DNA from: Microbacteriaceae bacterium | GTDB lineage: Bacteria; Actinomycetota; Actinomycetes; Actinomycetales; Microbacteriaceae | Assembly: GCA_025464975.1 (NCBI GenBank) | Contig: JAODMT010000004.1 | Span: 1-64,000 of the forward strand | DNA length: 64,000 nt | Reading direction: 5' to 3' | In this document: positions 4,999 to 27,877 of the stretch, piece after piece | Position numbering within the stretch: position 1 is the stretch's first letter | Layout: each line of letters begins with the position of its first letter | Program-made: the position numbers and the translations under genes | The notes under the pieces: generated by a model | Database searches by the model: none | What the model was told of the DNA's origin: nothing | What the model saw: the letters and a program-made list of their open reading frames with translations, nothing else

Positions 4999-5996
4999 CA
5001 AACGCACAGGAACAGAAGACCATCGGGACGCCGGCACCGACATCGGCACCAACCAGGAGCTTTCTCGCACGCCTGCCAGCTGCAGCGATCGTCGGCATCT
5101 TCCTGGTTATCGTGATCGTCCTCTTCAGCACGTCGGCCAGTGGATTCCTCACGCTGAACAACGTGACGACGATAATCTCCGCGGCGAGTGTGATCATGAT
5201 CGCCGCGTTGGGTCAGCTGCTCGTCGTCATCTCTGGAGGATTCGACCTCTCGGTCGGAGGAGTCATTCCGCTGGCCGCGGTCTTGTTCTCAGTGCTCACC
5301 ACCAGGGGCTGGCCGACGGCCGGCGCGTTGTTCGCATGCCTCCTGGTCGGTGCGGTTGTCGGTCTCATCCACACCTTTTTCATCGTGTACTTGAAGGTCA
5401 ACCCTCTCATCACGACTCTCGCCACGCTCTCGGTGACCGGCGGAATCGCCTTCATCGCCTCCAACGGTCAGACGCTCTCGGTGCCTGCCGCAGCCGGCAT
5501 CCTCGGCGACCAGGTCGTCGGAACACTCCCGTGGCACGTCCTGCTCATGGTGCTGCTGGTCGTGCTCATGCACTTCGTCCTGCAGCACTCGATACTCGGG
5601 CGTCGCATCTACATGATCGGTGGCAACCCAGAGGCAGCGCGCATCGCCGGAGTGCGGGTGATTGTTATCGGCGGATCCGCTTATGTGCTCTCCGCGGTAT
5701 TCGCATCGTTCGCCGGGGTGGTTCTCGCAAGCCAACTGCTCGCCGCATCGGGGACCATGGGAAGCCAGATCACCCTGCAGAGCCTGGCCGCGGTCGTCCT
5801 CGGCGGCGCCGCGCTCACCGGCGGTCGAGGGAGCGTGCCCGGCGCCGTGATCGGCGTACTCCTGCTCGGTGTCATCGCCAACGGAATGACCATCCTTCTC
5901 ATCCCGAGCTTCTACCAACAGGTTGTCTCCGGCGTCGTCCTGCTCGCAGCGGTCACGTTCAGCCGGTTACAAGAGCGAGCAAAACGCGTCGCTTAA
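4995..5996 (+). CDS. ABC transporter permease (RbsC-like)
   Basis: MTNAQEQ start with ATGA overlap; multi-TM, GGFDLSVGG, ALTGGRGS. Confidence 0.93.
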   Translation: MTNAQEQKTIGTPAPTSAPTRSFLARLPAAAIVGIFLVIVIVLFSTSASGFLTLNNVTTIISAASVIMIAALGQLLVVISGGFDLSVGGVIPLAAVLFSVLTTRGWPTAGALFACLLVGAVVGLIHTFFIVYLKVNPLITTLATLSVTGGIAFIASNGQTLSVPAAAGILGDQVVGTLPWHVLLMVLLVVLMHFVLQHSILGRRIYMIGGNPEAARIAGVRVIVIGGSAYVLSAVFASFAGVVLASQLLAASGTMGSQITLQSLAAVVLGGAALTGGRGSVPGAVIGVLLLGVIANGMTILLIPSFYQQVVSGVVLLAAVTFSRLQERAKRVA

Positions 5997-6050
5997 GCAC
6001 GAACCGTTTCACTTCACGCGCCACAGAACGGAAAGAGAGAAGCCCAAGCA

Positions 6051-7187
6051 ATGAAACGCACACGGAAACGCTTTGCCATCCTCGTGTTCACCTGTATTGC
6101 CGCACTGGTCCTGAGCGCATGCTCTGGCACCGCAGCCAGCGGAGGGATCAAAGGCGACAGCCTCAAGGGAGTAAAACTGGCCTTCGCGGTGTCGACGGCC
6201 GCGGCGTCGGTGGACGTCTCCCAGGCGAATATCTTCGTCAAGCAGGCCGAGAAGCTCGGCGCGACGGTTCACATCTACGACAACAACAGTGACGCGGCAA
6301 CGATGCTGAGCAACGCGTCGCTGATGGCTGCAGCGAAGCCCGACGTGATCGTCGAATATCCGTCCGCGGCGAACGCCACCGACCGGGTCGGCCAGACCTT
6401 CACCGCTGCCGGCATTCCTTGCATTGCCATCAACGTTCCAGTGAAGGGCTGCAGCTTCTTCAACTTCGACCAGCCGGCGCTGGCCGCCCTCGGCGCCGAA
6501 ACCATCGCGGCGAAGATGAAGGAGAAGGGATGGGATGGCACCAACACGACCGTCGTGATCGGACAGGCCTCACAGCTCGGCGCATCCGTGAACATCGCGG
6601 TGACCAGCTTCTACGCGAAACTTTCCGAGCTCGTGCCCGGGATGACCAAAGTCGCGGCATCCGACATCGGACCTTCGACGACCAAGATCAATTCACAGGG
6701 GCTCCAAATCGATACCGGCATCACTTTGGACGGGGGTTTCAACGCGGTTCAGACCGCGTTGCAGACAATTCCGGTCGACCGGAATGTCGTCGTCTACTCA
6801 GTGGCGGATGACTCCACCCAGGGCGCAATTCGCGCGCTCACCGCACAGAACCGGCAGTCGAGGGCCATGGTGTCCGGCTACGGCGGAGCGGACGAGAGTT
6901 TGAGCGCGATCCGCGCCGGCGGGATCTGGGTCAGCGACCAGGTCGGCTTCTTCCCATACTGGGGCGAATTCCTCCTGGCCATGGCCGTGGCTATGCACAA
7001 CGGAGTCACGCCGCCCGCGCTGACCGCGCCATCGCAGGTGGTCATCACCAAGGACAACATCGACAAGTACTTCAAGCCTGGCACGGCGGAGGTCACCATA
7101 ATGCCGCCGATTCCCAAGGAGTCGGAATACCTGCTGAAGACCGGCATCTTGCAGAAGTTTGGCAACATCCAGGGCGCAACCAGCTAG
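6051..7187 (+). CDS. Sugar-type ABC transporter substrate-binding lipoprotein
   Basis: Lipobox LVLSACSG; periplasmic-binding fold; follows permease. Confidence 0.92.
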   Translation: MKRTRKRFAILVFTCIAALVLSACSGTAASGGIKGDSLKGVKLAFAVSTAAASVDVSQANIFVKQAEKLGATVHIYDNNSDAATMLSNASLMAAAKPDVIVEYPSAANATDRVGQTFTAAGIPCIAINVPVKGCSFFNFDQPALAALGAETIAAKMKEKGWDGTNTTVVIGQASQLGASVNIAVTSFYAKLSELVPGMTKVAASDIGPSTTKINSQGLQIDTGITLDGGFNAVQTALQTIPVDRNVVVYSVADDSTQGAIRALTAQNRQSRAMVSGYGGADESLSAIRAGGIWVSDQVGFFPYWGEFLLAMAVAMHNGVTPPALTAPSQVVITKDNIDKYFKPGTAEVTIMPPIPKESEYLLKTGILQKFGNIQGATS

Positions 7188-7195
7188 GCGGCCCC

Positions 7196-7232
7196 GGTGG
7201 CGGCGTCCCGCAACGTGCGGGGCGCCGCCACC
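7196..7232 (+). terminator. Strong 17-bp hairpin between binding-protein and cyclase genes
   Basis: ggtggcggcgtcccgca-acg-tgcggggcgccgccacc; 17 pairs, one being U.G wobble. Confidence 0.6.
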
Positions 7233-7266
7233 CATCCGTTATTCCTTCACGACCAAGGAGCAGTAC

Positions 7267-8064
7267 ATGCAGATCGATTTCAGCGCGGCCGTTGAGGTGG
7301 TCGACCTCGGCCATCTGATGACGAGCGACATGCCGAGTTTTCCGAGTGCCCCTCCGTTCAGGATGGTGCCGTATTACCGCCTCGGAGACTTCGAACTCGC
7401 CAACGGGTACTGGGGGTGCAATGAGTTCGTGACGATGTCCGGGCACTCTGGCACTCACCTTGATGCCTTCGGCCATGTGGCCCAGGACGGCAAGGTATTT
7501 GGCGGCGCCGACGCGCTCGATGCGCAGGATGGGCTCGCCGGTCTGGTCGTGAACGCGATTCACCAGGTCGCACCGATCGTGCGCCGCGGGGTGCTTCTCG
7601 ACGTCGCGACCTTCCTCGGTGTCGATTCGCTCGATGGAGCAGCGGTGATCGGTCCAGACCTGATCCTGTCGACTGCGGAGTGGGCAGGCGTCGAGTTTCG
7701 CCCCGGCGATTGCGTGCTCATCCGCACAGGCTGGGAGCGGCACTGGGGCGATGCCCAGCGGTACCTCGGATTTGTGGACGGTGTTCCCGGGATCGACCTG
7801 GATGCCGCGGTGCTGTTGGCCGAGCGCGGAGCGTTCCTCATCGGCGCGGACACCGGGGGAGTGGAGGTAAGCTACGCGGTCGAATCGGAGCTGCCCGTCC
7901 ACATGGAAATGCTTGCGAAGCGAGGCATCCATCTGCTCGAGAATCTGTCGTTGCAGGCGCTGGTGCCTTACCGTAAGGCGGAATTCATCTTCTTCTGCTC
8001 GCCCCTCAAACTGCGCGGTTCGAGCGGCTCACCAGTTCGTCCGGTTGCAGTGTTCCAGCACTAA
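7267..8064 (+). CDS. Cyclase family protein (second copy in cluster)
   Basis: MSGHSGTHLDAFGHV motif; VLIRTGWERHW. Confidence 0.88.
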   Translation: MQIDFSAAVEVVDLGHLMTSDMPSFPSAPPFRMVPYYRLGDFELANGYWGCNEFVTMSGHSGTHLDAFGHVAQDGKVFGGADALDAQDGLAGLVVNAIHQVAPIVRRGVLLDVATFLGVDSLDGAAVIGPDLILSTAEWAGVEFRPGDCVLIRTGWERHWGDAQRYLGFVDGVPGIDLDAAVLLAERGAFLIGADTGGVEVSYAVESELPVHMEMLAKRGIHLLENLSLQALVPYRKAEFIFFCSPLKLRGSSGSPVRPVAVFQH

Positions 8065-8096
8065 TTAGCTGGTCGTGACGGCGGAAGCCCGCGTCG

Positions 8097-8591
8097 TCAC
8101 TGTCTCTGTGCGAGGTCCCGAAGGAGCGAGGGCCAGAAGACATCCAGCTCCTGCCGGTTGCGGTCGCTGGCGAAGTTGTCACCGGGAAGACGAATGGAGA
8201 TCTCGTCATACGTGACTCGAATCTCGAGTCCACCCTCGAAAGTGCCGGGTTGATCGCCTGCCATGAAGTTCGGTGCCGAAAGCAGTTCTGCGGCGCGAAT
8301 CGATTTGCGGCTGACGACTGTGGTGGTGATGTGGTCCACCATGGGGTCGTAGCTGAGCTGAAAAACATGGTCGTCAGTGAAGACCGCGACGTTGAATGCC
8401 GCCTCGGCGGTGGGCGAGGCCATGTCGACGGCGATGAAACGCGGTGGAGCCTCACGCACGCAATAGGTGAGTTTGGAGACCAGTCGGCTCAGTAGGAGCG
8501 GGTGGTCGCGAAAGACAGGGTGCTGGTCGAGGTCGCGTCGAGAGCCCGCCAGCTGCGCAAGAAGCGCCTTACCCAAGTCGATAAGTTCCAT
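8097..8591 (-). CDS. Hypothetical protein
   Basis: ORF with plausible RBS before MELIDLGKALL (ORF extends to 8630). Confidence 0.6.
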   Translation of the reverse strand: MELIDLGKALLAQLAGSRRDLDQHPVFRDHPLLLSRLVSKLTYCVREAPPRFIAVDMASPTAEAAFNVAVFTDDHVFQLSYDPMVDHITTTVVSRKSIRAAELLSAPNFMAGDQPGTFEGGLEIRVTYDEISIRLPGDNFASDRNRQELDVFWPSLLRDLAQRQ

Positions 8592-8746
8592 GCCTTTTCT
8601 TCCCTCCCGAGTGAGTATGCGACGGGACATACTCGTTCACCGTACACGTGGCGACCGCCAGTTTTTTGACCCGCATGCAGCTTTATCATTGTTATGAACG
8701 GGGACGGTGCGCTCGCACCGCTGGAACGAAGGGTCGAGTTCGGGTA

Positions 8747-9088
8747 GTGGGAAGGCTTGTATACGGTCCAGGCACAACCAACGCCGGCATGGAGATCGAC
8801 GATCGAACGCTTGCGCACGTGCAGATTGTCATGCTCGCAAAGCTCCGCCGCGGGGAAAGTTTTTCCTTTACCTATATTCCCGTGCCCTCCAGCGGTGAAG
8901 GACGAACGGTTGTCTGGGTGCACCCAAGTCAGTTTCTGAGCTTCAAATACAACGGCGGCAGGGTGCCAGCCATCAACAGGGAGTGGGTGGAAGAGTTGAT
9001 GGCAACCGCAAATAGCGTTGCCGGACTCCATATCGTCCCCGAACTATCAGCGAACGTCCAACGAGAACCTTCGATTCTGGAGCCGTAG
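8747..9088 (+). CDS. Small conserved protein resembling DUF7882 / DNA-ligase-like proteins of Microbacteriaceae
   Basis: GTG start; MGRLVYGPGTTNAGMEIDDRTLAHVQIVMLAKLRRGESF; family name from memory. Confidence 0.6.
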   Translation: MGRLVYGPGTTNAGMEIDDRTLAHVQIVMLAKLRRGESFSFTYIPVPSSGEGRTVVWVHPSQFLSFKYNGGRVPAINREWVEELMATANSVAGLHIVPELSANVQREPSILEP

Positions 9089-21176: not shown

Positions 21177-21295
21177 GGTATGCCTTTCGAATCACTGATT
21201 TTCCACGCTACTCCGCCAACATAAGCGAGCGCACCCCGGCTACAGAGCGCACCGCGGCTACAGTGAACTGCCGGACCGGCTACCGAAGGGATGTC

Positions 21296-22453
21296 GTGCG
21301 CACAGCCATATTGGGGGCCGTCCTCCTTCTGGTGGGTGGCCTCGCAATCGCCTTTCGCATCCTGTCGGTCAGTGACGCCCTCGCGATAGCCGACCGGGTG
21401 TGGCCGATCCTGCTCTTCGTGGTGGCCATCACCGTGGTAACCGAACTCGCCGCCGAGGCCGGACTGTTCCGCGTGGTCGCCGAGCGGACCGCCAGCTGGG
21501 GGCGAGGCCGAGCCTGGGTGCTCTGGCTTCTCGTGCTCGGACTCGCCGTCGCTGGCACGATTTTCCTGTCGCTCGACACCACCGCGGTCCTGCTCACCCC
21601 GGTCGTCGTCATCCTGGCCCGCCATGTTGGCCTGTCACCGCTGCCGTTCGCCCTCACGACGGTGTGGATGGCAAACACCGCTTCTCTTCTGCTGCCGGTG
21701 TCGAACCTCACCAATCTGCTGGCCGAACACGAGCTTGCCGGCATCGGCCCCGTGCGGTTCGCTGCCCTCACCGTCGTGCCGGCCGCGCTGTCGATCGCCG
21801 TGCCCGCCGTCATTCTCTTCGTGGTCTACCGCCGCAAACTGCTCGTTCGTTACGAGCCAGCCGAGCGCGAGTCGACCGACGACCGGGTACTTCTCGTCGC
21901 AAGCGGTGTGGTCATTGCCGTGCTCATCCCGCTTCTGGTGTCGGGTCTGCCGGTCTGGATCCCGGCCGTCGCGGGCGCGGCAACGCTCGCGGTGTTCTTC
22001 GCGGTGCGCCGCCGCGCCGTTCTGCGCTTCGGCCTGCTTCCGTGGCAACTCGTACTGTTGGCCGCCGGGCTCTTTCTCGTGGTCGAGGCCGCACACTCCC
22101 TCGGCCTCGGCTCGGCCCTCGCCGCCGTCTCCGGCACCGGTCACGGTCTTCCCGACCTCCTCCGCCTCGCCGGAGTCGGCGCCGCCGGAGCGAACGCCAT
22201 CGACAATCTTCCCGCCTACCTCGCGCTCGAACCGGTCGCCGGAGACCCGACCCGCCTCGTCGCTCTCCTCATCGGGGTGAATGTCGGACCGCTCATCACC
22301 CCGTGGGCCTCACTCGCCACGCTGCTCTGGCATGAGCGACTCACGGCCCTCGACGTGCGAATCTCGTGGGGTCGGTACGCGTTGCTTGGCCTGATCGCCG
22401 CTCCGGCCACGGTTGTCGTGGCGACGATCGGCCTCGCGTATACAGTGCGCTGA
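21296..22453 (+). CDS. SLC13/ArsB-like anion permease
   Basis: ARHVGLSPLPFALTTVWMANTASLLLPVSNLTNLL; GANAIDNLPAYLAL. Confidence 0.85.
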   Translation: MRTAILGAVLLLVGGLAIAFRILSVSDALAIADRVWPILLFVVAITVVTELAAEAGLFRVVAERTASWGRGRAWVLWLLVLGLAVAGTIFLSLDTTAVLLTPVVVILARHVGLSPLPFALTTVWMANTASLLLPVSNLTNLLAEHELAGIGPVRFAALTVVPAALSIAVPAVILFVVYRRKLLVRYEPAERESTDDRVLLVASGVVIAVLIPLLVSGLPVWIPAVAGAATLAVFFAVRRRAVLRFGLLPWQLVLLAAGLFLVVEAAHSLGLGSALAAVSGTGHGLPDLLRLAGVGAAGANAIDNLPAYLALEPVAGDPTRLVALLIGVNVGPLITPWASLATLLWHERLTALDVRISWGRYALLGLIAAPATVVVATIGLAYTVR

Positions 22454-22488: not shown

Positions 22489-22523
22489 CTGACCGATCGG
22501 TCAGATGCTGTCCCATCGGTCAG
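22489..22523. promoter_or_regulatory. Candidate TetR autoregulatory operator
   Basis: Perfect 16-bp palindrome CTGACCGATCGGTCAG (22489-22504) and extra half-site ATCGGTCAG, 15-34 bp upstream of tetR start. Confidence 0.65.
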
Positions 22524-22537
22524 CTAGCGTCGGATGC

Positions 22538-23110
22538 ATGTCCACTTCGTCAGACGACTTGCGCTCGATCGCGCTTGCCGAGTTCGCGACCGCCGGGTAT
22601 TCCGCGACCTCGCTTCACCGCATCGCCGACCTCGCCGGGTTGTCCAAGTCAAGCGTGCTGTACCACTACTCGTCGAAGGAGACGCTGCTCGAGGCCACCA
22701 TCGCCCCGGCGCTCGACCGCATGGAGCAGATCCTCGACGCCCTCGAGGCGCGGACGCTGAGCCCCGAGGGACGCACCGCCTTCCTCGCCGAGTTCGTCGA
22801 CTTCATCCTGCAGTACCGGCTCGAGGTGAACATGTTCATCAATCAGGGGCCGTCGCTCGTCGACGTGCCGGTGATCGACCGGGCCAATGACCTCGTGGTG
22901 AGGCTCTCGGAGTACTTCGCCGCGAACACCGGTTCAGTGGAGGAGAAGATGCGCTTCGGAATCGCCCTCGGCGGTGCGGCGTACATGCTCTGCAGAGCGG
23001 ATTCACTCAACTTCGAAAGCGCACCGATCGAGCAGACACGGGTTGCTCTCGTGAACATCCTCACCGAGCTTCTCGCGCCGGTCGACCCGATTACCACGAA
23101 CAGGATCTGA
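22538..23110 (+). CDS. TetR family transcriptional regulator
   Basis: IALAEFATAGYSATSLHRIADLAGLSKSSVLYHYSSKETLLEA. Confidence 0.93.
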   Translation: MSTSSDDLRSIALAEFATAGYSATSLHRIADLAGLSKSSVLYHYSSKETLLEATIAPALDRMEQILDALEARTLSPEGRTAFLAEFVDFILQYRLEVNMFINQGPSLVDVPVIDRANDLVVRLSEYFAANTGSVEEKMRFGIALGGAAYMLCRADSLNFESAPIEQTRVALVNILTELLAPVDPITTNRI

Positions 23111-23111
23111 C

Positions 23112-26018
23112 ATGGCGACCCTTCTCTATCGGCTCGGTCGATTCTCGTATCGCCGGTCCTGGACCGTGATCGGCGTCTGGCTCGTGCTCGTCGTCGGCGT
23201 GCTCGGCGGAAGCGTCGCGCTCGGCGGTCAGACCCAGGAATCGTTCGCGATTCCCGGGACAGAGTCCCAGAACGCGCTGGACCGGCTCCAGGCCGTGTTC
23301 CCCTCGGTCGCGGGTGCAAGCGCGCAAGCCATAATCGTCGCCCCGAAGGGTGAGTCGATCACGGATGCGCCGGTCAAGGCGGCGATCCAGACGTTGGACG
23401 CGAAGATCGCTTCGATCAAGGGAATCGACTCCGTCGTCGGCCCGTTCTCCAAATACGCCGGCAACGCGATCAGCAGCGATGGGCGGTACGCGAGAAGCCA
23501 GATCCAGTTCACCGGGGCGTCTACCGACGTGACCGCCACGACACTGTCACAGCTCAAAGCCACTTCGGCGATTGGAACGAGCGCTGGACTGACCGTCGCG
23601 TTCGGCGGTCAGGTGTTCCAGGACAACACCTTTGGCATCACCATCACCGAGGTCTTCGGGCTGCTGTTCGCCGCGGTGGTGCTCATCATTACCTTTGGCT
23701 CCCTGGTCGCGGCCGGTATGCCACTCCTCAGCGCCATGATCGGGGTGGGGATCGTCATCGGCGGCATCGGCGCCGTCTCCGCGTTCACAACGGTATCGAG
23801 CTCCGCGCCGCTGCTCGCACTCATGATCGGGCTCGCGGTCGGCATTGACTATTCGCTTTTCATTCTGTCGCGGCATCGAAGTCAGCTCGCCGCCGGCCAG
23901 GATCCGGAGGAATCGGCAGCGACCGCGGTTGGCACGGCAGGCAGCGCCGTCGTCTTCGCGGGAGTCACCGTGATCATCGCGCTTCTCGGGCTGCTCGTTG
24001 TCGACATCCCGTTCCTCAGCGTCATGGGCGTCGGCGCAGCATTCGCGGTGCTCATCGCGATCGGGGTCGCCACGACCCTCCTCCCGGCTCTGCTCGGCCT
24101 CGCCAAGGGGCGACTGGCGCCGAAGCCCGGGTCCCGGGCGTTTAAGCGCGCCATGGTGCACGGTGACGGGGGCACCCCGACCATGGGCCTCCGCTGGGTG
24201 AGAGGCGTCATGAAGCGCCCGATCTTCGCCACGGTCAGCGTAGTGCTTGTGCTCGGAGTGCTCGCCATTCCCGCGCTCAGCCTGGACCTCAACCTGCCCG
24301 ACGGCGCATCGGAGCCGAAGGGTTCGACCCAGCGGGAGGCCTACGAGCTGATCAAGGATGGCTTCGGTCCGGGCTACAACGGACCGCTCATCATCGCCGT
24401 CGACATCACCCAGACCACCAACATCCAGTCCGATCTGGACGGCATCGCGGCGCAGCTCAAGACCCTCAAGGACGTCGAGTACGTCAGTCCGGGGCTTCCG
24501 GATCCCGGACTCGACACCGCGATCATCCAGGTCATCCCCTCCAGCGCCCCCGATGCTCCGCAGACCAAGGCCCTCGTTCAGTCCATCCGAAACCTTGCGC
24601 CGACCATCGACAAGAAATTCGACACCCCGATCTCGGTCACCGGGTCGACCGCGGTCGGAATCGACATCTCAAACCGGTTGACCAACGCCCTTGTCCCGTT
24701 CGGCGCGATCGTCGTTGGCCTCTCGATCGTGCTCCTCATGATGGTGTTCCGCTCGGTGCTCGTTCCGATCAAGGCAGCGCTCGGATTCCTGCTCTCGGTG
24801 ATGGCCTCGTTCGGGGTCGTGGTGGCGATCTTCCAGTGGGGCTGGTTTGGCCAGCTGCTCAACGTGCAAACGCCCGGTCCGATCCTGAGCTTCATGCCGA
24901 TCATCCTCATGGCCGTTCTGTTCGGTCTCGCGATGGACTACGAGGTGTTTCTCGTGTCCGGGATGCGCGAGGAGTTCGTGCATTCCGGTGACGCGAAGCG
25001 ATCGGTGAGCCGCGGATTCGCCAACGGCTCGCGCGTGGTCACCGCCGCGGCCCTCATCATGTTCTTTGTCTTCTTCGCCTTCGTTCCGGAGGGCTCGAAC
25101 ACGATCAAGCCGATCGCCCTTGGTCTCGCCGTCGGGGTGGCGTTCGACGCCTTCCTGGTGCGGATGACCCTGGTCCCGGCGATCATGACCCTGCTTGGCC
25201 GAGCCGCCTGGTGGATGCCGAAGTGGCTTCGACGCGCACTGCCCAACATGGACATCGAGGGCGAGAACCTTCGCGAGCACCGGGAGGCCGTCGACTGGAC
25301 GCTCGGACAGGACGGCGCCGCCGTGAGTGCGGAAGCGCTCGTCGCCGGCTCGGAGCGGTTCGCCGTCGGACCGATCGACCTGGCCGTCCCAGCCGGCTCG
25401 GTCGTCCTCGCGAGTGGCGAGCCGAGCGTGCGCCGCCTGATCGCCGCCACGATCGCCGGTCGTATCGACGCGCTCTCCGGTCGGGCCCAGGTCATGGGGC
25501 ATCCGCTGCCGTCCGAGGCCGGGCGGGTCGCTCGACTCGTCGCGATGGCCGACGTCGGCGGGGTGGAACGCGCGGAGACCACGGTGACGCTCGGCGAACT
25601 CCTCGACGAACGGCTGCGCCTCACCGGTCCGGTGCGCAGGTTGGGACGCGCCCGCACGGCAGATCGATGGGTAACCCGAATCAACTCGGCGGTTTCAGAG
25701 GTCGCCGGCCGGGCGGCGACGCCCGTGACCATCCGATCGACGCTTCGGGAACTGCCGCAGCTCGAACGGGCGATCGCACTCGCGACGGTCGCCCTGTCCG
25801 AGGGCACTCCCGTCGTCGCGCTCGACCTGCTCGACTCGTTCGCCGAGACCGACGAACGCGCCTTCCTCGCCGCGGTGTGTCAACTCGCGGCCCCGACCAC
25901 TACCCTGCTGCTCTTCTCGCCGCTGCCGGTTCGGACCTCGAGTTCGGGTTGGGGAGGCGACCGCCCCCTCACCATCCTCGATCTCACAGCGCTCGACACC
26001 AGAGGAGTCCTTAAGTGA
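23112..26018 (+). CDS. MMPL/RND family transporter with C-terminal degenerate ABC-ATPase-like domain
   Basis: Twelve-TM MMPL organisation (FGLAMDYEVFLVSGMREE); residues after about 715 resemble an NBD lacking Walker A GKS/T. Confidence 0.9.
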   Translation: MATLLYRLGRFSYRRSWTVIGVWLVLVVGVLGGSVALGGQTQESFAIPGTESQNALDRLQAVFPSVAGASAQAIIVAPKGESITDAPVKAAIQTLDAKIASIKGIDSVVGPFSKYAGNAISSDGRYARSQIQFTGASTDVTATTLSQLKATSAIGTSAGLTVAFGGQVFQDNTFGITITEVFGLLFAAVVLIITFGSLVAAGMPLLSAMIGVGIVIGGIGAVSAFTTVSSSAPLLALMIGLAVGIDYSLFILSRHRSQLAAGQDPEESAATAVGTAGSAVVFAGVTVIIALLGLLVVDIPFLSVMGVGAAFAVLIAIGVATTLLPALLGLAKGRLAPKPGSRAFKRAMVHGDGGTPTMGLRWVRGVMKRPIFATVSVVLVLGVLAIPALSLDLNLPDGASEPKGSTQREAYELIKDGFGPGYNGPLIIAVDITQTTNIQSDLDGIAAQLKTLKDVEYVSPGLPDPGLDTAIIQVIPSSAPDAPQTKALVQSIRNLAPTIDKKFDTPISVTGSTAVGIDISNRLTNALVPFGAIVVGLSIVLLMMVFRSVLVPIKAALGFLLSVMASFGVVVAIFQWGWFGQLLNVQTPGPILSFMPIILMAVLFGLAMDYEVFLVSGMREEFVHSGDAKRSVSRGFANGSRVVTAAALIMFFVFFAFVPEGSNTIKPIALGLAVGVAFDAFLVRMTLVPAIMTLLGRAAWWMPKWLRRALPNMDIEGENLREHREAVDWTLGQDGAAVSAEALVAGSERFAVGPIDLAVPAGSVVLASGEPSVRRLIAATIAGRIDALSGRAQVMGHPLPSEAGRVARLVAMADVGGVERAETTVTLGELLDERLRLTGPVRRLGRARTADRWVTRINSAVSEVAGRAATPVTIRSTLRELPQLERAIALATVALSEGTPVVALDLLDSFAETDERAFLAAVCQLAAPTTTLLLFSPLPVRTSSSGWGGDRPLTILDLTALDTRGVLK

Positions 26019-27877
26019 GTCCGTCCATTTCTCCCGCACGCCGTTCGCTCGCCCATCGGGCGGCGATCATCGCCGTGGTGCTCGTCCCACTCGCGTTTGC
26101 CGGCCTGTTCGTCGGCGCGCTCGCGCAGGCGACCACGGCCGTTGACCGCATCCCGGCGGCGATCGTCAACTCCGACAAACTCGTCTATTCAACGGCCGCC
26201 GACGGCACGAAGTCGCCCATCTTCGCCGGCCGACAGCTCGTCACCGAACTGACCGGGGGCAGCAAGGGCTTCGACTGGACCATCACCAACAGCGCCGATG
26301 CCGAGCAGCAGCTCAAGGACGGCACGGTGGACGCCATCCTCACTGTGCCGAAAAACTTCTCTTCCTCGATCATGTCGCTTTCCTCGTCCTCACCGGAGCG
26401 GGCGAACCTCGCCATCCGCACCGACGACTCCCACAGCTATCTCACCGGGGCCGTGGCGCAATCCGTTGGCGACGGCCTCGTCAGTGCCTTCGGTGTGGCG
26501 ATCACGGAGCAGTACATTTCCGGGATCTCGGCCGGAATCGGGACCCTGGGTAGCTCTCTGCACTCGGCGGCGAACGGAGCGAGCAGCCTCGCGTCCGGTG
26601 CGACCGGCCTCAGCGGCGGCCTCGGAACCCTCTCCGGTGGGGTGTCATCCGCCGCGAGTGGTGCGTCATCCCTCGCGGGTGGCGTCACCCAGTACACCGG
26701 CGGAGTGGATTCGCTCAGCTCGGGACTCCGCAAGCTCAACGCCGGGGCGGCGAACCTCACCCCCCTCAGCAACGGCATTTCCGGAGTGGCCGGCGGCGTG
26801 GCGGCCCTGTCGGCGCAGCTCGCGGCAGCGACCGCGGCCCCCGTCCCCGACCAGGCAGCGATCGCCACGATAAGTCAGCAGCTCGCCGCGGCCTCCGCCG
26901 AACTCAGCGCCTTGAGCGGCCAGAATGCATCGCTTGCGACGGGCATCCAATCCGGTGTCAAGCAGAGTGCGTCCGGCTCTACCCAGCTTTCGGCCGGTTC
27001 GGAGTCCCTTCGGTCGGGTGCGAGCTCGCTGTCCGCGGGACTCGGGGAGCTCTCCGCGGGAGCAACGTCCGCCTCTACCGGCGCTGCTCAGCTTGCGACC
27101 GGGGTTTCGCAGCTGGCCGGCGGCCTCCAGAGTGGAGCGGATCAGGTTCCCGCGACTTCGCCGTCCGCCGCGGCGCAGACCGCGAAGATCGCCGCCGACC
27201 CTGTCGGCCTCACTGTGACGCGGGACAACAAGATCTCAAGCCTCGGCCAGGTCATCGCGACGTTCTTCGTGCCCCTCGGCCTATGGGTCGGCGCGCTCGC
27301 CGTGTTCCTGGTGCTCCGACCGCTCTCCCGACGCGCGCTCTCCTCCTCGGCCGGCAACGGGCGGCTTGTGCTCTCCGCCCTCGGCCGGGCCAGTGCGGTC
27401 ACCGTCGCCCAGGCGGTGTTGCTCGTGGCGCTCTTGCACGTCGCACTTCACGTGTCGTGGGCTCTGCTTCCGGCGACTCTGGGGTTCTCGCTCGTGCTCG
27501 CCCTGGCCTTCACCGCGTTCCACTACCTGCTGACGATCGCGTTCGGCCGTGCCGGACTCGTGATCTCGCTGCTGTTGCTCGCGATTCAGGTGACGTCGAC
27601 GGGAGGGCTCTACCCGGTTCAGATGCTCGCGGCCCCGTTCCAGCTGATCAGCCCGTTCCTGCCGCTCACCTACGGGGTTGCCGGGATGCAGGGGATCATC
27701 GCCGGAGGGAATGCCGGTTCCGTTGTCGCGGCAGCGTTCACCCTGCTCGCCTTCGGGCTCGCCAGCGTGCTCGTTTCGCTTCTGGTGGTCCGTCGCACCC
27801 GACGAGCCCAGGCGCTCGGGCTAACCTCGGCCCTCCCGCTGGGGAGTCATGGCGGCCAGGCACCGCAGGTCGCCTAG
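26015..27877 (+). CDS. YhgE/Pip domain membrane protein (ABC-2 type permease-like)
   Basis: N-terminal TM, heptad-like LSSGxxxLSAGxxxL repeats, C-terminal TMs; GTGA overlap with MMPL. Confidence 0.9.
   Translation: MSPSISPARRSLAHRAAIIAVVLVPLAFAGLFVGALAQATTAVDRIPAAIVNSDKLVYSTAADGTKSPIFAGRQLVTELTGGSKGFDWTITNSADAEQQLKDGTVDAILTVPKNFSSSIMSLSSSSPERANLAIRTDDSHSYLTGAVAQSVGDGLVSAFGVAITEQYISGISAGIGTLGSSLHSAANGASSLASGATGLSGGLGTLSGGVSSAASGASSLAGGVTQYTGGVDSLSSGLRKLNAGAANLTPLSNGISGVAGGVAALSAQLAAATAAPVPDQAAIATISQQLAAASAELSALSGQNASLATGIQSGVKQSASGSTQLSAGSESLRSGASSLSAGLGELSAGATSASTGAAQLATGVSQLAGGLQSGADQVPATSPSAAAQTAKIAADPVGLTVTRDNKISSLGQVIATFFVPLGLWVGALAVFLVLRPLSRRALSSSAGNGRLVLSALGRASAVTVAQAVLLVALLHVALHVSWALLPATLGFSLVLALAFTAFHYLLTIAFGRAGLVISLLLLAIQVTSTGGLYPVQMLAAPFQLISPFLPLTYGVAGMQGIIAGGNAGSVVAAAFTLLAFGLASVLVSLLVVRRTRRAQALGLTSALPLGSHGGQAPQVA

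Follow-up and report, generated by a model that had tools for sequence, protein, structure and literature searches.

The MMPL transporter encoded in the analysed stretch of Microbacteriaceae DNA (64,000 nucleotides, in the following referred to as the window) carries a C-terminal tail that is, by fold and by descent, an ABC nucleotide-binding domain (NBD). Sequence comparison and structure modelling give good support to the interpretation that a former YhgE-type NBD was joined to the MMPL pump, followed by loss of the P-loop in the lineage of the window. A full-text literature search identified no paper on such an MMPL-NBD fusion.

The open reading frame of the transporter has no internal stop codons (Table 1). 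A Pfam scan placed PF03176 on two stretches, corresponding to two repeats, through the first approximately 715 residues, and residues 1-715 represent an ordinary member of the MMPL family (PF03176; MmpL3/ActII-like). Ordinary MMPLs, however, end about 15-40 residues past the last helix and do not adjoin YhgE, and the window's protein differs in both respects. An earlier, sequence-only reading had described a 968-residue MMPL protein with a C-terminal ABC-ATPase-like domain, which was confirmed for the open reading frame, the separate tail domain and the NBD fold; the start it gave for the tail, 25258, is one base out of frame, the in-frame start being 25257. The tail is conserved across the genus and many genera of the window's family, the Microbacteriaceae.

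Table 1. Features of the TetR-MMPL-YhgE cluster and of two related fusions. Positions are those of the window, except for L334 and L342, which are numbered on their own loci.
Feature	Position	Strand	Remarks
TetR-family regulator, first gene of the conserved TetR-MMPL-YhgE cluster	22505..23110	+	PF00440, E 3e-11
MMPL (RND superfamily) transporter with C-terminal pseudo-NBD	23112..26018	+	968 residues; PF03176, E 8e-84
Pseudo-NBD tail	25257..26015	+	Residues 716-968, folded part about 724-957; AlphaFold2, Foldseek, profile against PDB
Walker A-equivalent position	25413..25436	+	SGEPSVRR in place of GxxGxGK[ST]; alignment to stand-alone relatives
Signature-equivalent segment	25743..25775	+	LRELPQLERAI, LSGGQ absent; aligned to LSGGQR of MsbA/TmrAB
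Walker B-equivalent	25812..25835	+	VVALDLLD; Asp905 retained, Leu replaces the catalytic Glu
Shine-Dalgarno-like AGAGGAG and GTGA stop/start overlap into YhgE	26001..26018	+	Within the final codons of the tail; read from the sequence
YhgE/Pip-family ABC-2-type membrane protein	26015..27877	+	620 residues; TIGR03061/TIGR03062, PF12698
P-loop-bearing MMPL-NBD fusion L334	733-3840	-	YhgE adjoining
P-loop-bearing MMPL-NBD fusion L342	541-4398	+	YhgE adjoining

The order TetR-MMPL-YhgE recurs at tail-bearing loci. The YhgE gene starts with a GTG at 26015 that overlaps the MMPL stop codon, and as the Shine-Dalgarno-like sequence lies inside tail codons, the recurring C-terminal end of the tail (..RGVLK, ..KGALQ) may in part be due to the ribosome site of the YhgE gene. 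The assignment of this overlapping gene to the ABC-2-like YhgE/Pip proteins was upheld, as it exceeded the cut-offs of both TIGR03061 (131.9 bits versus 96.15) and TIGR03062 (176 versus 102.2 bits), a membership shared with the YhgE/Pip family (phage infection protein, EsaA-like), and matched PF12698 (ABC-2) with an E of 1.5e-24. The AlphaFold2 model of the YhgE protein was moderate (pLDDT 76, pTM 0.51), and its fold matches, to an ABC-2 transporter domain, ABCG25 and ABCA1, were weak (E 0.004-0.1 for ABCG/ABCA). An ArsB/CitMHS-type transporter gene (21263-22453, +) is located immediately upstream of the cluster.

YhgE/Pip proteins are widespread and mainly known as phage-infection factors; to our knowledge, neither their transport function nor their energy source is settled. 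Pip of Lactococcus and Enterococcus has been described as a phage infection factor, and the available portions of these two reports make no mention of a dedicated ATPase partner (PMC5156332, PMC4999554). In Saccharopolyspora hirsuta, F1721_04135 (YhgE/Pip) and F1721_04140 (MMPL) share one table of ranked expression changes (PMC9782250). The window's genome contains a second YhgE-type gene on contig C24 (L298, 4842-7223, -) with no family NBD or MMPL adjoining. Tandem YhgE-type genes with open frames of 755 and 971 residues and no NBD gene were observed at another locus (L301, 2618-4882, -, and 4882-7794, -), and paired YhgE matches a few kb apart also occurred in further distant members of the phylum.

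The identity of the tail was determined by structure prediction and profile searches. AlphaFold2 yielded a model with a pLDDT of 90.7 and a pTM of 0.89, and Foldseek comparison of this model to the PDB returned 1007 matches at E<=1e-3; the 50 matches listed were all ABC NBDs or ABC transporters, with FtsE as the best (E 1.6e-10). The predicted structure thus had the NBD fold that had been anticipated from the sequence. When a profile of 28 tails was run against all PDB sequences, each of the best 60 matches was an ABC protein (best E 2e-4); several of them spanned the domain from before Walker A to past Walker B, and LPQLER of the tail aligned on LSGGQR. When scanned on its own, the tail had no significant match in Pfam or NCBIfam, and ABC_tran in Pfam was reached by only 5/28 family members even at E<10 (best 0.011). 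Among the stand-alone relatives described below, 8 of the 10 tested passed the gathering score of ABC_tran. As the profile, AlphaFold2/Foldseek and these relatives all point in the same direction, the resemblance to NBDs is not due to chance. A phmmer search of the PDB with the single tail sequence also gave a beta-lactamase resemblance (E ~0.1), which was judged spurious.

The tail shares the fold, the order of the elements and the Walker B Asp with ABC NBDs (PF00005; FtsE, the MsbA NBD, TmrAB), but it lacks the P-loop GK[ST], LSGGQ, the catalytic Glu and the H-loop His and is fused to an RND-type pump. The two segments highlighted by the sequence-only reading are present where they had been placed: when aligned to real NBDs, GPIDLAVPAGSVVLASGEPSVRR falls on the Walker A position, with GxGK[ST] absent, and LRELPQLERAIALATVALSEGTPVVALDLLD on the signature/Walker B position, with LSGG absent. 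Motif counts were based on 104 non-redundant full-length fused sequences of the window's clade. None of these retained the P-loop GK[ST]; the position of the P-loop Lys was occupied by Arg in 101/104, and an Arg-Arg pair located within a conserved block (G....RR..AATLAGRL...G..QV.GHPLPSE) replaced Lys-Ser/Thr in 89/104. LSGG was absent from all 104, the signature position of the window's tail being occupied by LPQLER, the catalytic Glu occurred in none (Leu in the window's tail), and His was absent from the stretch around the H-loop in 104/104. The Walker B Asp (hhhhD, here VVALD) was retained in 93/104. Within the Q-loop region of the tail (LVAMADVGG), where the alignment is gapped, the Gln was not visible.

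Searches for relatives of the tail also led to separate open reading frames of about 230-350 residues without MMPL, with a YhgE gene overlapping or closely downstream. This pair of stand-alone NBD and YhgE spans the Actinobacteria and is also present in families of the order and of the class to which the window does not belong. The stand-alone genes (L111, L117, L309, L313; ABC_tran matches) exhibit whole-domain homology to the tail and occupy the same site directly upstream of YhgE, but they are separate genes and have mostly kept the P-loop. Common to both are ERLxxxQPWYR after the Q-loop region and LxPLER replacing LSGGQ. Among 66 non-redundant stand-alone NBDs that are followed by YhgE, GK[ST] or GR[ST] was found at the P-loop in 63 (29 Lys, 34 Arg), LSGG in a single one and the catalytic Glu in none, with Asp, Asn, Gly or Gln instead; the H-loop His is also missing from these relatives. 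Family-search matches without YhgE were mostly canonical ABC ATPases, and the only clearly family-like one was situated at a contig edge (L020/L117). A number of stand-alone YhgE-linked NBDs (L171-L173; L174, 3668-4543, -; L175, 3215-4219, +) have GRGRT P-loops and VVGG where VVDD is usual in Walker B, indicating that degeneration of the NBD occurs without fusion as well. Two further stand-alone NBD-like genes adjoining YhgE have eroded P-loops with no MMPL fusion at the locus (L299, 6465-7241, -; L300, 6264-7124, -).

The P-loop was kept in MMPL-NBD fusions of three genomes, which belong to one genus of another family. It reads GPSGSGKT in L334 and L342 and GSDGAGKT in L350, and the Walker B of these fusions is LVVDDADD or VVVDDADD. 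A second fused group, forming a sister clade, has a shortened, variable pseudo-NBD with mixed P-loops, ranging from GPHRSGKS and GPHRSGRT to unrecognisable. The survey for stand-alone NBDs or for fusions with intact Walker motifs that the earlier reading had suggested recovered stand-alone NBDs and, as fusions with an intact P-loop, L334, L342 and L350. As fusions with GPSGSGKT exist, the P-loop was lost after the fusion; as the stand-alone relatives are already without LSGGQ, catalytic Glu and H-loop His, the loss of ATPase function largely predates it. The order of fusion and loss in the earlier proposal thus holds for the P-loop but not for these other motifs.

The association between tail and YhgE was determined for 196 MMPL open reading frames that are followed by 700 nt or more of DNA, a sample partly gathered by tail similarity, in which YhgE was the next gene for 153/153 tail-bearing and 0/43 tail-less MMPLs. 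In an MMPL-driven sample, every tail-bearing locus with enough DNA had YhgE and no tail-less one did, and a further MMPL-driven sample gave the same picture (tailed with YhgE 9/9, tail-less without YhgE 21/21). The tail is accordingly not a general extension of MMPLs, the outcome that would have spoken against the earlier reading: tail-less MMPLs are common and never adjoin YhgE in the sample. MMPLs with long frames elsewhere were considered as further carriers of the same tail, but 0/20 had the tail or a YhgE neighbour, and most of the long frames were due to upstream extensions. Three MMPLs (L368, 742-3426, +; L369, 951-3620, +; L370, 2-3115, +) end in an extension of another kind (about 105-155 residues), which contains VYGTVRSSDGTALPGAIVTLTDLRGRQIG, looks carboxypeptidase-regulatory/Ig-like and is not adjoined by YhgE. 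The MMPL frame of L047 is split by a stop codon (5947-7377 and 7381-9006, +), which may point to a recently formed pseudogene or to an error of the assembly.

The 103 tail-bearing sequences all fell into one clade of the MMPL tree (support 0.84; 1.0 for 101 of them), within which the intact-P-loop fusions L334 and L342 were placed. NBD trees built with FastTree resolved window, intact/short fused and stand-alone clades with low to moderate support, and the fused forms were not all grouped. Unlike in the MMPL tree, the window clade did not group with the intact fusions, possibly because the P-loop-less clade evolves fast. A single fusion event is likely. The dN/dS against homologues was 0.17-0.47 for the tail and 0.04-0.22 for the pump part; as the values for the tail are below 1, the domain is maintained by purifying selection, and its faster evolution may be due to relaxed constraint. 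Co-divergence was determined from distances over 70 complete clusters. The partial distance correlation between tail and YhgE, with MMPL and TetR controlled for, was 0.48 +/- 0.07, a mirror-tree signal that may be affected by unequal rates, but only 0.01 +/- 0.06 between tail and MMPL, despite both being part of one polypeptide. As the distances of the tail follow YhgE and not MMPL, the natural reading is that YhgE is the main partner of the tail. The idea that a former NBD of the YhgE permease has been fused to an RND-type pump is thus backed by fold, transitive homology, gene neighbourhood and co-divergence.

We propose that the ancestor of the tail was the NBD gene that is located directly upstream of YhgE in other actinobacteria, that this NBD became attached to an MMPL pump at its cytoplasmic C-terminus, and that the P-loop was then lost in the window's lineage. 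The C-terminus of an MMPL is expected to be cytoplasmic, as in MmpL proteins. The pseudo-NBD would most likely still sit where an NBD binds the YhgE permease on its cytoplasmic side, without hydrolysis. YhgE, an ABC-2-type protein with a long extracytoplasmic coiled-coil region, would thereby be held beside the proton-driven MMPL pump, and both may act as a single complex for envelope export that runs on the proton gradient and not on ATP. In this proposal, we infer the absence of ATP use, the physical docking, the energy coupling and the substrate. As ABC-2-type permeases naturally pair with an NBD on the cytoplasmic side, docking of the pseudo-NBD on YhgE is the most economical proposal, and the most likely role of the tail would be to dock YhgE to the proton-driven pump. 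The docking or coupling module suggested by the earlier reading is thus a hypothesis for which the circumstantial support is good. We consider it fairly probable that a dead NBD from a stand-alone YhgE-linked gene, fused to the MMPL C-terminus, now serves as a non-hydrolysing dock for YhgE. More tentatively, the complex may be a hybrid exporter, in which the retired ATPase of YhgE acts as an adaptor into the proton-driven RND-type pump, so that one superfamily re-powers another.

Several other roles of the tail are conceivable. It may be a scaffold or stability tag that equalises dose and place of both proteins without mechanical or energetic coupling, which would agree with the relaxed selection relative to the pump domain and with the shortened and variable pseudo-NBDs of the sister clade; however, the internal motifs are highly conserved over many genera and the association with YhgE is constant, and we regard this role as rather unlikely. 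The tail might also act as a regulatory sensor, an NBD-shaped domain whose conserved Arg-Arg binds a phosphate-bearing ligand, such as a nucleotide or a lipid phosphate, by which the pump or YhgE is gated. The residues that took the place of Lys-Ser/Thr are themselves conserved (R 101/104, RR 89/104) within a conserved block, which argues for a sensor, since function loss alone is not expected to keep the pair. However, the Arg pair could be simply structural, and the tail tracks YhgE rather than MMPL, rendering a sensor unlikely.

Alternatively, the fused NBD may still be an ATPase together with a second, intact NBD, in an asymmetric dimer like that of heterodimeric ABC exporters. Pairs of degenerate sites with one good site are well known from ABC exporters, and in TM287/288, TAP and CFTR a degenerate NBD is kept despite lost catalytic residues, its partner in the ABC transporter being an intact NBD. 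The tail was likewise kept after the loss of catalytic residues, and the Walker B Asp, retained in 93/104, would fit such a dimer; however, the tail has lost the site entirely and is attached to a pump of another superfamily. In addition, when the window's genome was searched with the tail, the only match at E<=1e-3 was the tail itself, which was also the only strong match of the family profile in this genome. The cluster has no NBD gene, and the stand-alone relatives are also without the signature and the catalytic Glu, all of which makes an ATPase of this kind very unlikely. Finally, a coincidental resemblance, with the tail being an unrelated MMPL extension, could be read from the lack of a significant Pfam or NCBIfam domain match of the tail alone, but the NBD fold and the chain of homologues refute it, as profile, fold and transitive homology agree; tail-less MMPLs are common, and this explanation retains practically no probability.

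The loci presented here give YhgE a dedicated NBD-like partner gene across the Actinobacteria and show this partner in fusion with an MMPL pump. They also provide a naturally occurring example of a polypeptide that joins two transporter superfamilies. With the graded series of stand-alone NBDs with a P-loop, fused NBDs with a P-loop and fused NBDs without one, it is now directly testable whether YhgE is an ATP-driven exporter or can draw its power from a different pump.
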